Assembly (NCBI RefSeq): GCF_000720455.1
Contig: NZ_JOAK01000029.1
Coordinates: forward strand, 7,680-71,679
Length of the DNA stretch: 64,000 nt
Source: Streptomyces virginiae
GTDB taxonomy: Bacteria > Actinomycetota > Actinomycetes > Streptomycetales > Streptomycetaceae
Direction: 5' to 3'
Shown: one piece after another, positions 50,459-55,036 of the stretch
Position numbering within the stretch: position 1 is the stretch's first letter
Layout of the letters: each line of letters starts with the position of its first letter
Position numbers and translations under genes: made by a program
The notes under the pieces: model-generated
Databases searched by the model: none
What the model was told of the DNA's origin: nothing
The model's input: the letters and a program-made list of their open reading frames with translations, nothing else

Positions 50459-50526
50459 GGTGTACCACTCCTGAAGATCGTCGCTGATCTGCTGAATGAA
50501 ATCGCAGGGTGTTGACCCCGCATGCC

Positions 50527-50543
50527 TTAGATTCTATACCTAA
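50527..50543. promoter_or_regulatory. Candidate Lrp/AsnC site upstream of Lrp gene
   Basis: TTAGATTCTATACCTAA, an imperfect 17-bp dyad with TTAG/CTAA ends and an A/T-rich centre, 38 bp before the Lrp start codon. A/T-rich dyads are typical for this regulator family; assignment is by position. Confidence 0.4.
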
Positions 50544-50580
50544 ACTTGCAGGATCGCCGAATAATGGAAGGCTCCACGTA

Positions 50581-51036
50581 ATGGACACGGTGGACAGGCA
50601 GCTCATCCAGGCACTCCGGGAGAACGGTCGCGCCTCGTACGCGGAGCTGGGCCGTCTCGTGGGCCTCTCCGGCCCCAGCGTCACCGACCGCATCAACCGT
50701 CTGGAGACGGCCGGCGTCATCACCGGCTACCGCGCGACGGTCGACTCGGCCTCGCTCGGCCTCGGCGTCACCGCGCTGATCGGCATCTCCCTCTCCGACG
50801 CCGCCGACCACGAGGACGTGGCCCGGCGGCTGCGCGACCTCGCGGAGATCGAGGACTGCTGGTTCATCGCCGGCGACGACTCCTACATGCTCAAGGTGCG
50901 CGCCAGCGACGTGGACGGCCTGGAGAAGATCATCCGCAAGCTCTCCGGAACCAAGGGCGTCTCGCGCACCCGCACCACCATCGTGCTCTCCACGAAGTGG
51001 GAGAACCGGGTCGGGGAGCTGCCCGAGGAAGCCTGA
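50581..51036 (+). CDS. Lrp/AsnC family transcriptional regulator
   Basis: 151-aa feast/famine regulator. N-terminal helix-turn-helix: DTVDRQLIQALRENGRASYAELGRLVGLSGPSVTDRINRLETAGVITGYRATVD. C-terminal RAM ligand domain: LGVTALIGISLSDAADHEDVARRLRDLAEIEDCWFIAGDDSYMLKVRASDVDGLEKIIRKL. ATG chosen with GGAAGG 8-9 nt upstream. It lies between mqnM and mqnE on the same strand, a conserved arrangement in Streptomyces that suggests control of quinone genes, though the ligand is unknown. Confidence 0.92.
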   Translation: MDTVDRQLIQALRENGRASYAELGRLVGLSGPSVTDRINRLETAGVITGYRATVDSASLGLGVTALIGISLSDAADHEDVARRLRDLAEIEDCWFIAGDDSYMLKVRASDVDGLEKIIRKLSGTKGVSRTRTTIVLSTKWENRVGELPEEA

Positions 51037-51097
51037 GAGTACGGTTGGTCAGGGTTTGCAGGACAGGCAAGAGGCATCTAGAGGAGGCGACCGGTAC

Positions 51098-52261
51098 ATG
51101 GACGCTGGGCTCAAGCGTGAGCTGGAGGAGAAGGTCCGCTCCGGCGAGCGGCTGACCCGTGAGGACGGCATCGCCCTCTACGAGTCGGACGACCTGGCCT
51201 GGCTCGGCGGCCTCGCCCACGAGGTGCGCACGCGCAAGAACGGTGACGTGGTCCACTTCAACGTCAACCGCCACCTCAACATGACCAACGTGTGCACCGC
51301 GTCGTGCGCCTACTGCTCGTTCCAGCGCAAGCCGGGCGAGAAGGACGCGTACACGATGCGCATCGAGGAGGCCGTGCGCCTGGCCAAGGCCATGGAGACG
51401 GAGAACCTCACCGAGCTGCACATCGTCAACGGCCTGCACCCGAACCTGCCGTGGCGCTACTACCCGCGCTCGCTCTCCGAGCTGAAGAAGGCGCTGCCGC
51501 ACGTCTCGCTCAAGGCGTTCACGGCGACGGAGATCCACCACTTCGAGACGATCTCCGGCATGTCCGCCTCGGACATCCTGGACGAGCTGATCGAAGCCGG
51601 CCTGGAGTCCCTCACCGGCGGCGGCGCGGAGATCTTCGACTGGGAGGTCCGCCAGCACATCGTCGACCACCGCACCCACTGGGAGGACTGGTCGCGCATC
51701 CACCGTCTGGCGCACTCGAAGGGCCTCAAGACCCCTTCGACGATGCTGTACGGGCACATCGAGGAGCCGCGCCACCGCGTGGACCACGTGCTGCGCCTGC
51801 GCGAGCTCCAGGACGAGACCGGCGGCTTCCAGGTCTTCATCCCGCTGCGCTACCAGCACGACTTCGTGGACATGCAGGACGGCAAGGTGCGCAACAAGCT
51901 CCAGGCGCGCACGACGATGGCCACCGGCGCCGAGGCCCTGAAGACCTTCGCCGTATCGCGGCTGCTCTTCGACAACGTTCCGCACGTCAAGGTCTTCTGG
52001 GTGATGCACGGCGTGCAGACCGCCCAGCTCGCGCTCCAGCACGGCGCGGACGACATGGACGGCTCGGTCGTCGAGTACAAGATCACCCACGACGCGGACA
52101 ACTACGGCACCCCGAACAAGCTGGGCCGTGAGGACCTGCTGGAGCTGATCCGGGAGGCCGGCTTCCGGCCGGTCGAGCGCAACACGCGCTACGAGATCAT
52201 CCGCGAGTACCCCGGACCGGACGCGGACCTGCGCGAGACCCCGCAGGCGATGCGCGTCTGA
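51098..52261 (+). CDS. mqnE: Aminofutalosine synthase MqnE (radical SAM)
   Basis: 387-aa radical SAM enzyme joining SAM-derived adenosyl radical to 3-(1-carboxyvinyloxy)benzoate to form aminofutalosine, an early step of the futalosine pathway. The 4Fe-4S ligands are Cys66, Cys70 and Cys73 in VCTASCAYCSFQRKPGEKDAYTM; LHIVNGLHPNLPWRYYP, KAFTATEIHHFE and LTGGGAEIFDWEVR are family signatures that separate it from MqnC. Start ATG after GAGGAGG at 10 nt; the 42-bp longer frame lacks a site. A strong terminator follows. Confidence 0.94.
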   Translation: MDAGLKRELEEKVRSGERLTREDGIALYESDDLAWLGGLAHEVRTRKNGDVVHFNVNRHLNMTNVCTASCAYCSFQRKPGEKDAYTMRIEEAVRLAKAMETENLTELHIVNGLHPNLPWRYYPRSLSELKKALPHVSLKAFTATEIHHFETISGMSASDILDELIEAGLESLTGGGAEIFDWEVRQHIVDHRTHWEDWSRIHRLAHSKGLKTPSTMLYGHIEEPRHRVDHVLRLRELQDETGGFQVFIPLRYQHDFVDMQDGKVRNKLQARTTMATGAEALKTFAVSRLLFDNVPHVKVFWVMHGVQTAQLALQHGADDMDGSVVEYKITHDADNYGTPNKLGREDLLELIREAGFRPVERNTRYEIIREYPGPDADLRETPQAMRV

Positions 52262-53357: not shown

Positions 53358-53396
53358 CGCCCCAGCACCGGGAATACCGCCCGTAACGCTGGGGCG
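53358..53396 (+). terminator. Hairpin terminator after DUF4229
   Basis: CGCCCCAGC and GCTGGGGCG form a 9-bp stem around a 21-nt loop, followed by TTGGTGTTTT, the closest thing to a T-tract in this window. Confidence 0.75.
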
Positions 53397-53440
53397 TTGG
53401 TGTTTTCCGGGTCCGCGCAAGAGGGCCCCGCGCGCCGCTG

Positions 53441-53472
53441 TCTCAAAGGGCCCCTTTGAGATTCTCAAAGGA
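53441..53472. promoter_or_regulatory. Three alternating TCTCAAAGG half-sites upstream of leader peptide
   Basis: TCTCAAAGGG at 53441, its reverse complement CCCTTTGAGA at 53452, and TCTCAAAGGA at 53463: three 10-bp elements at an exact 11-bp step. As DNA they form overlapping dyads on one helix face. As RNA the middle element could pair with either neighbour; the third contains the ribosome site of the leader peptide (AAAGGAG). Confidence 0.65.
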
Positions 53473-53483
53473 GAAGTGTTAGC

Positions 53484-53594
53484 GTGTTCAACATGTTGAC
53501 CACAGCTGCGCACCCGATGATCACGAGCGTTCCGCTCGTGACGCGCCTGCACGTCGACCTCTGCCGCCGCGCGTCCGCGGCCTGTTGCTGTTGA
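53484..53594 (+). CDS. Polycysteine leader peptide (putative cysteine-responsive attenuator uORF)
   Basis: 36-aa frame reading VFNMLTTAAHPMITSVPLVT then RLHVDLCRRASAACCC-stop. The block SVPLVTRLHVDLCRRASA is the conserved core of actinobacterial leader peptides and the three terminal Cys codons fit the polycysteine uORFs shown in mycobacteria to couple ribosome stalling at low Cys-tRNA to expression of downstream sulfur genes. GTG is 7 nt from AAAGGAGAAG; the in-frame ATG three codons later is too far from it. It ends 110 bp before the symporter start. Regulation here is inferred by analogy. Confidence 0.82.
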   Translation: MFNMLTTAAHPMITSVPLVTRLHVDLCRRASAACCC

Positions 53595-53704
53595 GCTGAA
53601 TCGATACAGCAGCGGTCCGGGCCGGCCCTTCCTGGCTGCTGCCGCACCGCAACACCACGCAGAACCACCCCCCTCACTTCGTGCGCCACCTCCGGAGAGT
53701 GTCC

Positions 53705-55036
53705 GTGTCCGCGACCCCACAGGCCCCTGCCAAGGCCTCGTTCAAGTTCCCCTTCTGGGCCCAGATCGTCGCCGGTCTGGCCCTCGGCGTCCTCTTCGGC
53801 TGGATAGCCCGCAGCCAGGACGTCAGCTGGCTCGCCACCACCCTGGAGAAGACCGGCGACATCTTCGTCCAGCTGCTCAAGCTGGCCATCGCCCCGCTCG
53901 TCTTCTTCGCGATCCTGGTGTCGATCACCAATCTGCGGAAGGTGAACAACGCGGCGCGCCTCGCCTCCCGCACCCTCCTCTGGTTCATGATCACCTCGCT
54001 GATCGCGGTCGGCATCGGCATCGGCATCGGCCTGCTGACGGACCCCGGCGCGGGCACCGGCCTCACCGCCGCCGACGGCAAGGACCCGAAGAAGACCGGC
54101 TCCTGGATCGACTTCCTGACCGGCATCGTGCCCACCGACATCGTCACGCCGTTCACCGAGCTGAAGGTCCTTCAGATCGTCTTCCTGGCCGTCGTCGCCG
54201 GCATCGCCGCCCTCCAGCTCGGCGCCAAGGCCAAGCCGGTCCTCGACCTCGCCGAATCCGCCCTGGAACTCCTCCAGAAGGCCCTGTGGTGGGTCATCCG
54301 CCTCGCCCCGATCGGCACCGTCGGCCTCATCGGCACCGCGATCGCCACGTACGGCTGGGACCTGATCGGCAAGTACGCCACCTTCACCGCCGACATCTAC
54401 ATCGGCTGCGCCCTGGTGCTGTTCGGCGTCTACCCGCTGCTGCTCGCGACGGTCGCCAAGGTCAACCCGATCCAGTTCTTCAAGGGCGCCTGGCCCGCCA
54501 TCCAGCTGGCCTTCGTCTCCCGCTCCTCCGTCGGCACCATGCCCGTCACCCAGAAGGTCACCGAACGCCTCGGCGTCCCGAAGGAGTACGCCTCCTTCGC
54601 CGTCCCGTTCGGCGCCACCACCAAGATGGACGGCTGCGCCGCGATCTACCCGGCGCTCGCCGCGATCTTCATCGCGCAGATCTTCGACGTGCAGCTGGGC
54701 ATCAAGGAGTACCTCCTCATCGTCTTCGTCTCGGTCATCGGCTCCGCCGCGACGGCCGGCCTGACGGGCGCGACCGTCATGCTGACGCTGACCCTCTCCA
54801 CCCTGGGCCTCCCCCTCGCGGGCGTCGGCCTGCTGATGGCGATCGACCCGATCCTCGACATGATGCGCACCGCCACGAACGTCGCAGGCCAGGCCCTGGT
54901 GCCGGTCATCGTCTCGGCCCGCGAGGGCATCCTGGACAAGGAGGCCTACGCGACGGCCTCGGGCTCCCCGCTGGACGAGCCCGCCGCCCCGCCCGTCGTC
55001 GACGCCACGCCGCAGCCGGCCGCCGCGACCGCCTGA
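53705..55036 (+). CDS. Dicarboxylate/amino acid:cation symporter (DAACS)
   Basis: 443-aa secondary transporter of the DctA/GltP fold. Features: FPFWAQIVAGLALGVLFGW at TM1, FVQLLKLAIAPLVFFAILVSI, HP1 with SRSSVGTMPVTQKVTERLGVP (the serine-rich re-entrant loop), ASFAVPFGATTKMDGCAAIYPALAAIFIAQ (the NMDGT-type substrate and Na+ region, here KMDGCA), and HP2/TM8 with DPILDMMRTATNVAGQ. GTG chosen since CGGAGA precedes it at 6 nt. The polycysteine leader upstream suggests the substrate is cystine, cysteine or another sulfur compound, although sequence alone fits a dicarboxylate or glutamate carrier. A strong terminator follows. Confidence 0.88.
   Translation: MSATPQAPAKASFKFPFWAQIVAGLALGVLFGWIARSQDVSWLATTLEKTGDIFVQLLKLAIAPLVFFAILVSITNLRKVNNAARLASRTLLWFMITSLIAVGIGIGIGLLTDPGAGTGLTAADGKDPKKTGSWIDFLTGIVPTDIVTPFTELKVLQIVFLAVVAGIAALQLGAKAKPVLDLAESALELLQKALWWVIRLAPIGTVGLIGTAIATYGWDLIGKYATFTADIYIGCALVLFGVYPLLLATVAKVNPIQFFKGAWPAIQLAFVSRSSVGTMPVTQKVTERLGVPKEYASFAVPFGATTKMDGCAAIYPALAAIFIAQIFDVQLGIKEYLLIVFVSVIGSAATAGLTGATVMLTLTLSTLGLPLAGVGLLMAIDPILDMMRTATNVAGQALVPVIVSAREGILDKEAYATASGSPLDEPAAPPVVDATPQPAAATA

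Follow-up and report, generated by a model that had tools for sequence, protein, structure and literature searches.

The locus and its leader

What controls a transporter gene that follows a short open reading frame ending in cysteine codons, and what might such a transporter carry? These questions are raised by a locus of Streptomyces virginiae, whose genome (8.3 Mb in 132 contigs) contains a second SDF gene. The window, as we call the whole stretch of DNA analysed, is 64,000 nucleotides long. The initial annotation of this DNA placed an upstream open reading frame with a polycysteine end, and a DAACS symporter gene under its control, at 53484-55036. The open reading frame is present at 53484-53594 of the forward strand, ending LHVDLCRRASAACCC-stop, and the DAACS gene follows it and ends at 55036. 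The nearest named protein relative of the transporter is from Streptomyces sp. NRRL F-2664 (98%). Published work is cited by PMC number, for the extracts of each source available to us. The main elements are as follows.

53493-53594, forward strand: leader peptide open reading frame, MLTTAAHPMITSVPLVTRLHVDLCRRASAACCC, 33 codons, predicted to be leaderless; 26.4 bits against NF042934 (cut-off 27).
53694-53699, forward strand: Shine-Dalgarno sequence GGAGAG of the transporter gene, read from the sequence.
53705-55036, forward strand: DAACS/SLC1 transporter gene, 443 amino acids, GTG start, KMDGC clade; 356.1 bits against PF00375 (SDF; cut-off 27.9).

Upstream of the leader are genes for an Lrp/AsnC regulator and the aminofutalosine synthase MqnE of the menaquinone route (50509-52261). 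A terminator-like hairpin with a T-rich tail (53384-53399), just 5′ of the leader promoter, probably ends the DUF4229 gene.

The leader is conserved with the transporter gene

A survey of homologues had been proposed as a check on the leader. Among 121 genomes of the genus, 83 encode an orthologue of the transporter (at least 73% identity; one is in pieces). The next matches, one fragment apart, fall to about 30-33% identity. Of 138 genus-level orthologue loci, 133 have the leader. One set contributed 56 of 58 and a set of named records 77 of 80; the two may share strains, and the second includes a single record with the title Streptosporangium. Removing 18 loci (6 that a stricter pattern did not parse and 12 duplicates) gave the sets of 120 used below. 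Of the conserved block noted initially, positions 0-6 are fixed.

53547-53567, forward strand: invariant block L-H-V-D-L-C-R, block positions 0-6; each position is kept in 119 or 120 of 120 leaders, with synonymous codon changes.

The codons of the block vary, for example between CAC (78) and CAT (41), and between GAT (74) and GAC (46), in the 120 genus-level leaders. Since the residues are fixed while synonymous codons vary, selection acts on the peptide.

Outside the genus, 77 loci of other families were scored with a leader HMM; 53 exceeded 12 bits (range 12.5-51.1), and 46 exceeded 28 bits. These 77 include two more distant proteins, L252 (50% identity, leaderless) and L255 (44% identity, with leader). 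By comparison, the leader was absent from all 20 loci of other DAACS genes (paralogues), for which the best score was 4.8 bits. The HMM was trained partly on loci that it later scored; a separate pattern search was independent. In 11 of 16 family groups at least one locus has the leader. In the remaining five (f5, f35, f38, f46 and f49; sixteen loci) the transporter is present and no leader was detected. The 24 leaderless loci include L195 and L204, where long open frames put the right stretch outside the scan, and L241, which has little upstream sequence. None of the f5, f35 or f38 genomes was among the 110 of 148 with a match to NF042934, and four are named among the matchless genomes. Thus, the leader system itself seems to be missing from these three groups; f46 and f49 did not figure in that list. 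Taken together, these results show the cysteine leader before this DAACS gene to be real and conserved.

Transcription of the leader

53456-53485, forward strand: predicted promoter; −35 TTGAGA (53456-53461), 18 nt, extended −10 TGT-TAGCGT (TAGCGT at 53480-53485); conserved as TGTTAACGT/TGTTAGCGT in the alignment.
53442-53470, forward strand: operator-like element; half-site CTCAAAG (53442-53448), 5-nt gap, then the palindrome CTTTGAG-ATT-CTCAAAG (53454-53470), which overlaps the −35 element.

A sigma-70 promoter scan called no promoter at the leader. The pattern TG[TC]TANNNT followed, after 5-7 nt (7 nt in 102), by ATG (107) or GTG (13) is present in all 120 distinct orthologue promoters. The initial annotation started the leader at GTG 53484, which falls inside the −10 element. 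Because of this overlap, and of the spacing pattern, ATG 53493 is the likely and best start. It lies seven bases past the conserved −10. Hence, the mRNA should be leaderless, a prediction that rests on promoter spacing in 120 of 120 orthologues. In S. lividans the −10 consensus is TAnnnT and 17% of transcripts are leaderless (PMC8079986); none of the eight leader peptides given in the extract of that study is a cysteine leader.

The palindrome CTTTGAG-N3-CTCAAAG has 0, 1, 2, 3 or 7 mismatches in 69, 29, 20, 1 and 1 of the 120 orthologue promoters; 118 have at most 2 mismatches in 14 positions. The third half-site is present in 107. In the S. virginiae genome the palindrome is a single site at up to one mismatch, and a control pattern written backwards also has one match there. 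Across the 121 genus genomes, exact sites occur in 44, one in each, with zero control matches; by their coordinates, 33 stand before the transporter gene and 11 elsewhere. Two candidates for the protein that binds this operator were rejected. The nearby Lrp/AsnC gene (about 50584-51036) has a close orthologue in 121 of 121 genomes (lowest listed identity 80%), including 38 that lack the transporter orthologue; its co-occurrence thus gives no support to a dedicated role. For NdgR, the published motif is unlike the operator (PMC4340878).

Leaders of other families have different upstream sequences. The pattern GGAAT-N16-19-GTT precedes 23 of 53 and is absent from 30; 200 shuffles gave a mean of 0.41 and a maximum of 3. 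It was found at 0 of the 60 genus promoters examined (half of the 120). The published SigH/SigR consensus is GGAAT-N18-19-GTT, and SigR of S. coelicolor serves thiol homeostasis (PMC10012870). The promoters of this type point to thiol stress control of the leaders that have them. Given an operator-like palindrome in Streptomyces and SigH/SigR-type promoters elsewhere, the leader is combined with different transcriptional controls in different lineages. By eye, GGAAT-N18-GTT can also be read upstream of a second leader of the S. virginiae genome, the one before CysO-like and cysteine synthase genes (L004). A leader of this type, behind a GGAAT-N18-GTT promoter, also precedes the gene of the more distant L255 (genome G576; motif KFDGCG).

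Related leaders, most of them before probable sulfur genes

The NCBIfam model NF042934 (cis_reg_atten, 'putative leader peptide') describes a class that shares with the window leader the block [HA][VI]DLxR and a Cys at position 12. The window leader falls just short of the curated cut-off of this model. So do four of seven other DAACS-gene leaders, which scored 35.1, 30.9, 30.4, 25.8, 24.3, 21.3 and 15.6 bits (3 of 7 pass); the lowest score belongs to a leader ending CCCCR. A search of the S. virginiae genome found nine credible leaders. Seven exceeded the cut-off; the window leader scored 25.1 bits and the ninth 19.2. Five of the eight companions precede, respectively, a sulfatase gene; genes for a CysO-like carrier and cysteine synthase; a sulfonate-type ABC binding protein gene; genes for a cysteine dioxygenase-like protein and rhodanese; and a sulfite-reductase-like gene. 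The other three stand before rhodanese, flavin reductase and 2-oxoglutarate oxygenase genes. These names were read from translations; by our reading, six of the eight companions appear to precede sulfur genes. The leader before the transporter is of this kind. For that reason cysteine control, and a cystine- or cysteine-type substrate, are likely, as the initial annotation had supposed.

Canestrari and co-workers reportedly described, in 2020, cysteine-responsive polycysteine attenuators of mycobacteria, relatives of the NF042934 leaders, that are leaderless. An earlier finding of such leaders is in PMC4633059. They share with the window leader a short open reading frame, predicted to be leaderless in the window, C-terminal Cys codons and the association with downstream sulfur genes. 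However, the window leader matches the mycobacterial models Ms5788A and Ms4527A weakly (15.5 and 11.6 bits; cut-offs 45), and the target here is a DAACS transporter. Candidate cys leaders proposed in 2005 (PMC1262725) also have Cys runs near the stop codon and no conserved terminator, and Rho was suggested to act on them. Those leaders were reported upstream of cys and cbs operons; the text of that paper examined never uses the word transporter. In our searches of the literature on such transporters, no DAACS gene was described as having a cysteine leader.

One cysteine codon is fixed

The window leader ends in three Cys codons.

53583-53585, forward strand: invariant Cys codon TGT, block position 12.
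53586-53591, forward strand: two more Cys codons, TGC TGT, present in only some of the leaders.

The initial annotation described a polycysteine leader; its proposal is not supported in that form, as the run of cysteines is not the conserved sensor. At genus level, Cys occupies block position 13 in 75 and position 14 in 23 of 120 leaders. Among 48 anchored leaders of other families, one has Cys at position 13 and one at position 14. What stays constant is the block [HA]-[VI]-D-L-x-R, together with a single Cys at position 12. On these alignments the Cys-Cys-Cys tail is a secondary, side-branch trait, and a single cysteine codon is what is conserved.

That codon is TGT in 245 of 246 leaders: 119 of 120 at genus level before the transporter, 8 of 8 other leaders of the S. 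virginiae genome, 53 of 53 other-family transporter leaders and 65 of 65 places in a class-wide NF042934 draw. The draw comprised 69 loci, of which 6 were not parsed, and yielded 68 rows. The 65 places correspond to 67 rows, as two places were read twice on one stretch (shared by L330 and L357); the remaining row, a second frame at L320, was left out of the count. In that frame the block is present and a stop codon occupies position 12. At L310, L330 and L362, two different leader frames lie on opposite strands of a single short stretch, which suggests divergent sulfur genes, each with a leader.

The choice of TGT is not general to these loci. In the DAACS transporter genes of 74 loci, TGT accounts for 1 of 144 Cys codons. 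The remaining Cys codons of the leaders are divided between TGT and TGC as 110/213 in the genus, 5/42 in other families and 16/85 in the class-wide rows. Because the leaders were found with models of amino-acid sequence alone, the search cannot have favoured one codon over the other. In 243 tabulated rows, the TGT is preceded by C or G and never followed by G. The literature searched contained no earlier report of the fixed TGT; most subscription papers were beyond reach, and it may be known. In the cysS upstream open reading frame of Rhodobacterales, UGC dominates (PMC8632094).

How could one codon serve as a sensor? UGU, decoded by wobble pairing, may be read slowly. Our suggestion, which we hold tentatively and at somewhat less than even probability, is that all actinobacterial sulfur leaders are one-codon cysteine sensors. 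The block [HA][VI]DLxR, lodged in the exit tunnel, and a slowly read UGU would together stall the ribosome at a mild shortage of Cys-tRNA, and extra Cys codons would only tune the response. The geometry, offered jointly with this suggestion and just as tentatively, would bring the UGU to the decoding centre twelve codons after the first residue of the block and nine after its invariant Asp. We liken the arrangement to the E. coli arrest peptide TnaC (PMC10941005), where a peptide block and a codon at fixed distance are combined with Rho-linked control. TnaC answers an excess of Trp, whereas the leader here would answer a shortage of Cys.

The gap between leader and gene

53595-53692, forward strand: untranslated gap, C-rich, G-poor and terminator-free, a candidate Rho-utilisation region.

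In the gaps of 120 orthologues, the mean C content is 0.479 and the mean G content 0.225. C exceeds G in all 120, compared with 44 of 157 control upstream stretches, which lie before long open reading frames rather than curated genes. The same bias is seen in 53 of 53 other-family gaps and 66 of 68 class-wide rows; for stretches upstream of paralogues the figure is 10 of 20. The distance from leader to gene is 47-210 nt, with a median of 99.

Several modes of control were considered. Attenuation by an intrinsic terminator was rejected, as no terminator lies between leader and gene. A structured RNA was also rejected: the single Rfam match, at 19.8 of 78 bits, is far below its cut-off. Folding of the gap is no better than that of shuffled sequences (mean z +0.71 for 60 orthologues), and the stretch from leader to early gene gave z −0.86 in the window. 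A switch that occludes the Shine-Dalgarno sequence has a small and inconsistent modelled effect in 120 orthologues. Mean accessibility of this sequence was 0.337 with no ribosome, 0.371 with a ribosome at the first Cys codon, 0.360 at the last Cys codon and 0.348 at the stop codon.

These values bear on the proposal that cysteine acts on translation, with the gap folding over the ribosome binding site of the transporter gene except when a stalled ribosome occupies the leader. Translation attenuation of this sort, a mode other than Rho termination, has been described in PMC13236596 (2026), which assigns it to mycobacterial cysteine genes. Consistent with it, a stall at the first Cys codon raised modelled accessibility by more than 0.1 in 28 of 120 orthologues and lowered it in 10; for the last Cys codon the numbers were 19 and 6. 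However, the mean shifts are small, and in the window itself accessibility falls on stalling, from 0.39 to 0.31. The poor folding and variable length of the gap also argue against this mode of control, which we consider rather unlikely.

Leader genes have further been proposed to raise translation through reinitiation (PMC4833913), and the leader could be no more than a translated spacer that supplies the next gene with ribosomes and senses nothing. The gap, however, exceeds the 10-11 bp at which that effect peaks in PMC4833913, and reinitiation would explain neither the invariant peptide block nor the TGT codon. We regard it as highly improbable. A gap that is C-rich, G-poor, weakly structured and free of terminators fits Rho loading, our preferred reading. 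For the mycobacterial cys operons, Rho had been suggested in 2005 on weak evidence (PMC1262725).

The transporter and its substrate

The transporter belongs to a distinct clade. In a 44-row tree, L252 and L255 join 27 KMDGC rows in a group that stands apart from the relatives of GltP and DctA at 100/99, and the 27 alone form a group at 88/66. The motif KMDGCA, which had been taken as support for an altered specificity, occupies residues 307-312 of the protein when it is read from GTG 53705. In GltPh numbering, all 79 clade members examined retain R276, D394, R397, T398 and N401, along with T92, M311 and D312. All 79 also carry K310 and Q405 (transporter residues 307 and 396) at sodium-site positions. 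The motif is thus present but, by itself, is no sign of a new substrate: the changes fall at a sodium-site position, where Lys replaces Asn 310, and at position 314, and D394, R397, T398 and N401 are retained.

Sodium-coupled DAACS proteins have the signature [S/T]92-93, N310, [M/S]311, [D/E]312 and [D/E]405; for proton-coupled members it is [A/L/I/V/M/F]92, L311 and N405 (PMC12668577). The clade departs from the first at K310 and Q405, and from the second at T92, M311 and Q405. The lysine may stand in for the cation, as a built-in charge that removes sodium coupling. Nor are these proteins of the DctA type: S394 and A398 are absent, D394 and T398 are present in 79 of 79 members, and the tree sets DctA apart.

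Is the substrate aspartate, glutamate or a C4-dicarboxylate, with the tie to cysteine having another reason, such as carbon-skeleton supply or export? The four invariant residues D394, R397, T398 and N401 bind Asp, and an HMM of the clade scores GltPh (240.0 bits) as high as the E. coli protein TcyP (238.5 bits). Yet TcyP, or YdjN, keeps the same four residues and imports cystine; it is a proposed member of the Cys regulon (PMC4383340), annotated in E. coli as a cystine/sulfocysteine:cation symporter. Dicarboxylates are further opposed by the absence of DctA-type residues, and the whole proposal by the many other-family promoters that look thiol-stress controlled. We judge it unlikely.

TcyP and the clade have in common the DAACS fold and a one-residue insertion (DGC in the clade, NGC in TcyP). 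TcyP differs in carrying G and S where the clade has K310 and Q405, and the tree leaves it unplaced, as a single sequence on a long branch. The 120 matches to TcyP are close enterobacterial relatives, so the motif that they share is weak evidence. The common insertion is a modest hint towards cystine. A sulfur amino acid is a plausible substrate.

Operon partners offered no further guide. Downstream of 20 orthologues, where translations were read by eye, no recurring sulfur genes were seen; the only repeats were a Maf-like protein (4) and one other secreted-looking protein (2).

Discussion

Our best explanation, which we think probable, is that the locus encodes a cysteine-responsive leader-peptide attenuator governing a transporter of the SLC1/DAACS fold that imports a sulfur amino acid. 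Control of the transporter by cysteine is likely; the leader probably restricts synthesis of the transporter to times of cysteine shortage.

From the arrangement of the locus we infer the following course of events. Transcription would start at ATG 53493 or at the base just before it, and a ribosome would begin the leader at once. With plentiful cysteinyl-tRNA, the ribosome would pass the UGU codon, end at the stop codon and leave, so that the C-rich gap is bare. Rho could then load and halt transcription before the transporter gene. Conversely, with scarce cysteinyl-tRNA, the ribosome would stall at the position 12 UGU, aided by the nascent HVDLxR block in the exit tunnel. The stalled ribosome would cover the start of the gap and keep Rho off, and the transporter would be made. 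For the transporter itself, we infer that the substrate taken up is most likely cystine, or an acidic sulfur amino acid related to it, and that uptake is probably not coupled to sodium.

Control of this type is known, but we found no report of it for such a target, and a codon constraint comes in addition. A clade annotated as dicarboxylate/amino acid:cation symporters would become tied to cysteine supply across many families of the Actinomycetia, and proteins with unusual sodium-site residues would gain a testable function. The choice of TGT over TGC is a sharp clue to how cysteine may be sensed, and one that the poly-Cys picture missed.
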